From positions 62,001 through 126,000 of the forward strand of contig NZ_BMDH01000001.1 in NCBI RefSeq assembly GCF_014635685.1: a DNA stretch of 64,000 bases. The letters run 5' to 3'. Made by a program: the position numbers and the translations under genes. Source of the stretch: Galliscardovia ingluviei. GTDB lineage: Bacteria > Actinomycetota > Actinomycetes > Actinomycetales > Bifidobacteriaceae. The notes beneath the pieces are model-generated. The model was not told where the DNA came from and did no database searches. It saw only the letters and a list, made by a program, of their open reading frames with translations. This document shows positions 61,479 through 62,939 of this stretch, in pieces (positions within the stretch are counted from its first letter, which is position 1; each line of letters opens with the position of its first letter).

Positions 61479-61783
61479 GGGATTTGGTAGTGGTTGGGTG
61501 GTTGAATGCTTGAACTGTGTTTTGTATGTTTAGGCTAGTAACTTATACATGCTGAATTTTTCAGAAGAACTTTCAAACCTTAATTGCTATAAACCAAAAT
61601 CATGACGTAAATACATGCAAGTGCACACCATATTGGTGTTATTGCTATCGATATCTGACGATTGTATTGCAAAGCAAAAAGAAAGCATGATATGCGAACG
61701 ACGCTGTTCGTATAGATGCTCATTCACTGATATTTGTTTATCTATACATAACAATAGCCATATGCTATTGGAGTGAGTGAGAT

Positions 61784-61906
61784 CTAGCGCTGGTTGGCGA
61801 TGTCAAGAGCGTTTTCAATAACACGCTCATTAGCACCTGCGTTAGAAATCATCATAGATGCACCGGAAAGAGAAAGTCCGCGAAGAATTGCCTTCTTAAT
61901 ATTCAT
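61784..61906 (-). CDS. Small peptide A, 40 residues, unknown
   Basis: A short reading frame with AAGGAG seven bases before its ATG. The product starts MNIKKAILRGLSLSGASMM and ends VIENALDIANQR. It has a basic N-terminus, a small-residue middle part, an amphipathic-looking C-terminal helix and no Cys. It is similar in length, first residues (MN-I/L-K) and C-terminal pattern to peptide B just upstream, so the two are probably paralogues. No known family is recognised; a secreted signal, toxin-like or bacteriocin-like peptide is conceivable. Confidence 0.6.
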   Translation of the reverse strand: MNIKKAILRGLSLSGASMMISNAGANERVIENALDIANQR

Positions 61907-61964
61907 TTTGTACTCCTTGTTATTTGTAATTTAGATTTTTGTATGGTTAGTTTTAGTTTTAGCT

Positions 61965-62081
61965 TTAGCGCTTTTCGGTTTCACGCAATGTGTCGATAAG
62001 TGCCTGTGCGACAGCTGGTGAGCTGGTCTGAGACAGAGTGTACAAAGTTGCGCTGCGAATGAATGCTTGCTTGAGATTCAT
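61965..62081 (-). CDS. Small peptide B, 38 residues, unknown
   Basis: A short frame with AAAGGA before its ATG. The product starts MNLKQAFIRSATLYTLSQ and ends ALIDTLRETEKR. It lies 58 bases upstream of peptide A on the same strand and resembles it. A promoter can be drawn on the minus strand with -35 TTGCGC (62149-62144) and -10 TATAGT (62126-62121), 17 bases apart, and the -35 lies inside the TTGCGCAA element. The RBS, promoter and paralogous neighbour make it a real gene in my view; function unknown. Confidence 0.6.
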   Translation of the reverse strand: MNLKQAFIRSATLYTLSQTSSPAVAQALIDTLRETEKR

Positions 62082-62141
62082 TGTTGTTCCTTTCTTGTGT
62101 ATTTCTTCCTGACGATTATTACTATAGCGCAACCACAAGAT

Positions 62142-62161
62142 TTGCGCAAGCGTTTGTGCAA
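62142..62161. promoter_or_regulatory. TTGCGCAA direct-repeat element, site 1
   Basis: TTGCGCAA-GCGT-TTGTGCAA: two half-elements 12 bases apart (one turn-plus), each nearly a palindrome. It covers the proposed -35 box of the small-peptide promoter. Confidence 0.6.
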
Positions 62162-62344
62162 AGTACTTACCGGTTGGTTGGTACTATTGATGTTTACGGC
62201 GTGTCGTATATAGAATTGTTGAAATATATGGGTTCTATTTATGAATATAAGATGAACTACAATAAACATGGCAGTGAGATACTGGAGAAAATGAGCTGTT
62301 AATTACTTCACAAATACTTCTATTTAATAGTGGGTTATCAGTAA

Positions 62345-62364
62345 TTGCGCAATCGTTTGCGCAA
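62345..62364. promoter_or_regulatory. TTGCGCAA direct-repeat element, site 2
   Basis: TTGCGCAA-TCGT-TTGCGCAA has the same layout as site 1, 203 bases away. On the minus strand its second TTGCGC stands 17 bases before TATTAA, again promoter-like. A further single TTGTGCAA is at 62399-62406. The stretch 62165-62340 has no gene I can support. Confidence 0.6.
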
Positions 62365-62439
62365 CATGAGTATGGAAACGAAATATTGAAGTACGAGTTT
62401 GTGCAAGCTTCTGCAGTTCGATAATACAGTTCAACGGTC

Positions 62440-62467
62440 TTGTATCAAACTGATAAATGTTTATAAT
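62440..62467 (+). promoter_or_regulatory. Promoter of the zur-like gene
   Basis: -35 TTGTAT (62440-62445) and -10 TATAAT (62462-62467) are 16 bases apart. Transcription would begin near 62474, downstream of the ATG at 62457, which favours the GTG start at 62505. Confidence 0.6.
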
Positions 62468-62504
62468 CTCAAGTAGTACAAGACGATTGATAAGGGTGAG
62501 TGTA

Positions 62505-62939
62505 GTGGCGGAACGTAAAGGGAATACAACATCTCCATCAAATACTAGCGTTGGATCATCGAGAACAACTGCTCAAAAAACAGCAATACATAATCAACTG
62601 CGTCAAACACAAGACTTTATTTCGGCTCAAGAACTCCATAAACAATTGCAAGAACAAGGCATACGCATCGGCTTGGCGACGGTGTATCGTCAGCTCAATG
62701 CGTTAGCTGCAAGTGGTCATGCGGATACTTTGCGCATGGGTGGAGAGCAGCTGTTTCGAGATTGCGCAGAGCGCTCTCCGGAACATCACCATCATTTAGT
62801 GTGCGAACAATGTGGTAAAACGGTAGATATAGAGCCGCCTGAGGAGCAATGGTTTACTCAAGTGGCACAGCATCATGGGTTCAAAGTGCGTACGCATGTT
62901 ATAGAAATATTTGGTATATGCCAAGAGTGCGCACAATAG
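62505..62939 (+). CDS. zur: Fur-family regulator, Zur (FurB) type
   Basis: A 144-residue metal-sensing repressor. The winged helix contains FISAQELHKQLQ and IGLATVYRQLNALAASGHAD. The metal segments are EHHHHLVCEQCGKTVDIEPP and the C-terminal CQECA, giving the structural four-Cys zinc site. The HHHHLVCxxCGxTV-EPP arrangement is closest to actinobacterial FurB/Zur, so zinc is the likely signal (inference). The GTG at 62505 follows AAGGGTGAG and lies downstream of the promoter. Confidence 0.88.
   Translation: MAERKGNTTSPSNTSVGSSRTTAQKTAIHNQLRQTQDFISAQELHKQLQEQGIRIGLATVYRQLNALAASGHADTLRMGGEQLFRDCAERSPEHHHHLVCEQCGKTVDIEPPEEQWFTQVAQHHGFKVRTHVIEIFGICQECAQ

Follow-up and report, generated by a model that had tools for sequence, protein, structure and literature searches.

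The two short open reading frames between positions 61784 and 62081 of the window (the whole 64,000-nt stretch of Galliscardovia ingluviei DNA analysed here) are real conserved genes, not chance frames, and they belong to a hitherto unnamed family of microproteins of approximately 40 residues that is restricted to some bifidobacteria. We tentatively propose that these are carbohydrate-derepressed microproteins under LacI-type control that act in trans on a conserved protein partner. Both frames were found where the original prediction had placed them, in tandem on the minus strand with the 38-aa gene first, between the convergent purE-purK genes and a divergent Fur-like gene:

61965..62081, minus strand: microprotein gene 1, 38 aa, MNLKQAFIRSATLYTLSQTSSPAVAQALIDTLRETEKR; homology over its length to same-genus peptides
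61784..61906, minus strand: microprotein gene 2, 40 aa, MNIKKAILRGLSLSGASMMISNAGANERVIENALDIANQR; independent-profile match (E = 2e-10)
61752..61770, minus strand: terminator-like hairpin 3' of gene 2, with a weak T tail

The Shine-Dalgarno sequences are strong and well spaced, as predicted, being AAAGGA for the 38-aa frame and AAGGAG for the 40-aa frame, approximately 6-8 nt upstream of the ATG. The evidence for the terminator-like hairpin is weak, because two were seen in the region and 0.7 were expected by shuffling.

A profile was built from relatives only, with the window peptides excluded, and 2,868 candidate window frames were ranked. The 40-aa frame came first of the 2,868 (E = 2e-10), and the 38-aa frame came second with the genus profile lacking the window peptides (E = 0.047). 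Because the relatives-only profile ranks the two frames first and second in the window, they are not chance frames. Both show full-length profile similarity to the family, including the MN/S-[FILM]-K...R-G/S...terminal Arg pattern. For the 38-aa frame, the weaker of the two, a single-sequence match to a relative covered 36 of 38 residues (E = 0.0026), and its tandem position and a promoter kept base for base across the genus add further support. Among syntenic orthologue pairs, pS was 0.108 and pN was 0.029; the ratio of 0.27 indicates that selection acts on the encoded peptide. The proposal of paralogous, translated and conserved small genes is supported: family copies occur in 9/9 genomes of the genus and in 23 others, with the low non-synonymous/synonymous ratio that had been anticipated.

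The family has the form M-x-[FILM]-K-x-S-[MIL]-[LIM]-R-G-[LM]-A-[LM]-Y-G...R, and its members are helical, Cys-poor, Trp-free peptides of 37-44 aa, encoded by single genes or tandem arrays in which each frame has its own Shine-Dalgarno sequence and ATG. Arg is the C-terminal residue in 75 of 77 peptides and Lys in the other 2; Trp occurs in none of the 77 and Cys in 3. The peptides are hydrophilic (mean net charge: +1.2; mean hydrophobicity: about zero), and no membrane-spanning stretch was found in them. The N-terminal part is conserved and the C-terminal part is more variable. The hydrophobic moment was near shuffled values in the N-terminal part (mean z: 0.4) and above them in the C-terminal 16 residues. 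The predicted structure is all-helical, and both fold models gave a single helix with modest confidence (pLDDT: 73-74; pTM: 0.29). NCBIfam and PADLOC gave no match for the family peptides, and the single matches in Pfam (HEAT_2, E = 0.048, below its cut-off), PHROGs (E = 0.29) and PDB (E = 0.2) were taken as chance. The peptide motif was not found in the literature searched. The novel 57-aa B. longum protein BL1 of the SIHUMIx community (PMC7903761) was considered as a member, but it is probably something else, because no start codon yields 57 aa in either frame of a B. longum-like genome.

A single-sequence search of 59 relatives returned full-length matches in same-genus genomes. In those loci, frames of 37-44 aa follow one another in tandem, and every one starts with ATG after a strong ribosome-binding site. 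Based on profile searching, family copies occur in all 9 genomes of the window's genus. Among 189 genomes of the bacterial family, two genera had the peptides, this one and a second with 23 carrier genomes, and the remaining 14 genera had none; a few further genomes of the second genus gave weak or partial matches alone (for example, G160, G097 and G126). No match was found in the 394 other genomes of a sample of 395 Actinomycetia that included the window's genome, or in viral contigs and plasmids. The named loci belong to Bifidobacterium species, many of them from primates (callitrichos, saguini, stellenboschense, aesculapii, ramosum, myosotis and others), with B. pluvialisilvae as a named carrier inside the window's own genus. 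The peptide-bearing sister clade presumably includes B. longum and B. breve.

Several same-genus genomes likewise have a peptide gene after purE-purK and on the strand opposite to it; the two are directly adjacent on contig 5 of one relative (G004) and approximately 1.3 kb apart in B. pluvialisilvae. The conserved unit consists of the repressor and the microprotein, and the other neighbours vary between loci. Besides the LacI gene, no neighbour was kept across the loci of relatives, and no linked exporter, immunity gene or RiPP modifying enzyme was found. Seven loci (L099, L102, L105, L106, L108, L110 and L111) have an ABC ATPase and a TetR gene, and most of them an FtsX-type permease as well, no more than approximately 6 kb from the peptide gene on either side; this cluster is possibly an exporter or possibly a mere neighbourhood. 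A Fur-like gene lies near the peptide gene in L055 and a metal-binding lipoprotein gene in L061. Additionally, these genomes encode, at other loci and behind another promoter, a diverged subgroup of single-copy genes, M[GS]FKKN[LM]MRG[LM]A[LM]AGF... (L064 and L067-L071).

Upstream of the two window genes, the following elements were identified:

62121..62149, minus strand: sigma-70-type promoter, -35 TTGCGC (62149-62144), 17-bp spacer, -10 TATAGT (62126-62121); conserved in same-genus promoters
62142..62161, no strand assigned: LacI-type operator 1, TTGCACAAACGCTTGCGCAA (minus strand), overlapping the -35 box; conserved before peptide arrays in relatives
62165..62182, no strand assigned: imperfect inverted repeat ACCAACCAACCGGTAAGT of the ACC-N-ACC-N4-GGT-N-GGT type, TetR-like, just upstream of operator 1; from the promoter alignment
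62197..62206, minus strand: conserved upstream box CGACACGCCG, a possible activator site; GAMACGCCGA precedes most promoters of the family, whichever of the two clades they are from
62345..62364, no strand assigned: LacI-type operator 2, TTGCGCAATCGTTTGCGCAA, a near-identical palindrome 203 bp from operator 1

The striking repeated element noted in the original prediction of this promoter proved to be an operator of the LacI type that overlaps the -35 box and is conserved across the genus. Matches to this palindrome of approximately 20 nt, at no more than 3 mismatches, occurred twice in the window, versus 0.10 expected by chance. The promoters of the genus share one order: the CGACACGCCG box, the ACCNACC-N4-GGTA repeat, the operator TTGCGCCAGCGCTTGCGCAA (in the window, TTGCACAAACGCTTGCGCAA), a TATNGT -10 box and GTCAG. 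The -35 box TTGCGC is the second half of the operator, with TATNGT 17 bp after it, and the core ACCNACC...GGTA of the inverted repeat is invariant in 12 aligned promoters. Both clades share a GA[AC]ACGCCG box ahead of the -35 element. Operator 2 might serve as a looping partner or control the Fur/Zur-like gene (62345-62939 region), which may be co-controlled because the operator lies 93 bp before its ATG.

Operator scans of genomes, allowing up to 2 mismatches, returned sites before peptide arrays; in relatives, the matches with 0-1 mismatch all lie before peptide arrays, except one before the glycogen phosphorylase gene glgP in G004. Sites before glgP were seen in two relatives (1 mismatch in G004 and 3 mismatches in G008). 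In the window's genome, one further perfect site precedes a GH13 alpha-glucosidase gene, and the other, weak sites lie in or near unrelated genes. The composite promoter pattern (box, -35 and -10) was too strict for regulon mapping. Alpha-glucosidase and glgP are typical MalR-regulon genes (PMC4746261); because these genes share the operator, the repressor reading it in the window is probably of the MalR (maltose) type, and TTGCGCAAACGCTTGCGCAA is the putative MalR-binding site sequence of the window. Some single-copy same-genus members carry TTGTGAGCGCTAACAA at their promoters (L055, 6730-6861; L057, 9015-9146; L059, 10379-10510). It is close to the published AraQ consensus, TGTGAGCGCTCACA (PMC4746261), which suggests a second sugar regulator for these paralogues.

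The sister clade has a dedicated repressor with Pfam LacI and Peripla_BP_3 domains, and in most of its loci the LacI gene is divergent from the peptide gene and adjoins it. Among the 189 genomes, LacI at 67% identity or more was found in exactly the 23 sister-clade genomes with strong peptide matches, and LacI at 57-61% identity in all 8 genomes that the window's genus has besides the window's own; one of these 8 also has a 77% partial copy. LacI at 57% or more without the peptides occurred in none of the 189. The dedicated LacI is thus present in all 31 other peptide-bearing genomes, and the window's genome alone has peptides without it (best match: 28% identity). Co-occurrence of repressor and peptides was strong (Fisher's exact p ~1e-34 over 189 genomes that are related and hence not independent), and it may reflect few evolutionary events because the pattern follows clade boundaries.

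Of 20 named sister-clade loci, 19 have the operator GAAACCGGTTTC directly before their first peptide gene, and all 20 of its occurrences in 238 kb are at those peptide-gene positions; GAAACCGGTTTCA is the site sequence putatively bound by the adjacent LacI. In 7 genomes, the perfect 14-mer TGAAACCGGTTTCA was found 9 times, always ahead of a frame of approximately 40 aa: 7 sites precede members of this family and 2 a further 38-aa frame. The latter (MTNKNIFGDILNYCADNMFPESIAREKMAESARRHGNR and its relative) probably represents a further subfamily; it too has a C-terminal Arg, and it is similar to the 'YAADNM' subgroup that the window's genus has. The two extra perfect sites lie in L210 and L211, around 1501-1850.

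We therefore favour, as a tentative explanation, a sugar-responsive switch for peptides that are probably cytosolic. A LacI-family repressor on the -35 box, in the window probably of the MalR type, would block one strong promoter upstream of both frames; in the B. longum-like clade, the dedicated LacI repressor would act at the -10 region. Arrival of the right carbohydrate, or of its metabolite, would release the repressor from the promoter, and several paralogous peptides would be produced at once, each translated from a ribosome-binding site of its own. As trans-acting regulatory microproteins, they might bind a conserved partner, for example, a sugar transporter or a central-carbon enzyme, and so couple carbohydrate supply to that partner. 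Action in trans is suggested because the peptide units stand alone with varying neighbours. It is also possible, though slightly less likely, that the LacI regulon consists, where checked, of microprotein genes only, forming a sugar switch with peptides of approximately 40 residues as its sole output, with sister-clade paralogues answering to other sugar repressors through MalR-like, AraQ-like and dedicated LacI operators.

The main rival holds that these are leaderless secreted antimicrobial or surface-active peptides, made from an induced array, exported by an unlinked ABC transporter and acting on the membranes of competitors. The multi-copy tandem layout of leaderless peptides of approximately 40 aa is like that of leaderless bacteriocins and phenol-soluble modulins, the prediction is helical, and approximately 7 of 20 sister-clade loci have an ABC ATPase and a TetR regulator no more than a few kb away, in most cases together with an FtsX-type permease. 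However, the low net charge, the near-shuffled N-terminal hydrophobic moment and the lack of Trp do not suit such an activity, no exporter or immunity gene is consistently linked, and no peptide family in Pfam or NCBIfam was matched; we consider this reading unlikely. The earlier suggestion of membrane-active peptides is likewise possible but weakly supported, given a charge of about +1, modest amphipathicity and no Trp. A quorum-type signal had also been put forward. A pheromone cut from the C-terminal part would suit the conserved N-terminal and more variable C-terminal parts, as in some precursor peptides, but neither a signal peptide nor a double-Gly site was found, no receptor, protease or exporter is kept alongside the peptide genes, the near-invariant Arg is the C-terminal residue itself and all copies differ within one genome, so that a signal seems improbable.

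Two other readings, like the pheromone, fit poorly. The product might be the transcript, as a regulatory RNA or leader, and the hairpin at the transcript end (z = -2.1) is compatible with this; against it stand the pN/pS ratio, the independent Shine-Dalgarno sequence and ATG repeated for each frame, a coding part without excess structure (z = -0.6), and the absence of an Rfam match at the locus and of a same-orientation gene downstream, and we regard it as highly improbable. The type I toxins named in the original prediction would likewise be short tandem paralogues without a family match, but a hydrophobicity near zero, the lack of a membrane-spanning stretch, the absence of a visible antitoxin RNA or of a convincing antisense promoter (not above shuffles) and an atypical LacI-controlled promoter make this idea scarcely credible.

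Through this family, a connection of sugar sensing with the function of microproteins can be tested directly. Sugar control in bifidobacteria is closely studied, because infant-gut colonisation and the use of prebiotics depend on it. Regulon reconstructions are based on annotated genes; the genes of this family are as a rule too short for annotation, yet they are under the same repressor class and might be targets for a regulator without an assigned role.

Among known systems, leaderless bacteriocins and phenol-soluble modulins are similarly leaderless, tandem and approximately 40 aa long, with a ribosome-binding site each. Unlike the bacteriocins, which are strongly cationic, amphipathic and often Trp-rich, the present family is weakly charged, little amphipathic and Trp-free, and unlike both groups it ends in Arg and has no immunity gene and no Pfam match. 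The MalR1/2/3 maltose regulon of Bifidobacterium (PMC4746261) shares the LacI-type operator, the same 20-bp site lying before alpha-glucosidase and glgP; no microprotein target is named in the parts of that work consulted, and the MalR link of the window family is a probable one. The enterobacterial sugar-stress microproteins such as SgrT are comparable in having approximately 40 aa, control by sugar status, no catalytic domain and a presumed protein partner, whereas no sequence relation was seen (no Pfam or NCBIfam match). SgrT is a single-copy peptide encoded on a small RNA that SgrR controls; the window family, by contrast, forms tandem arrays under LacI-family repressors.
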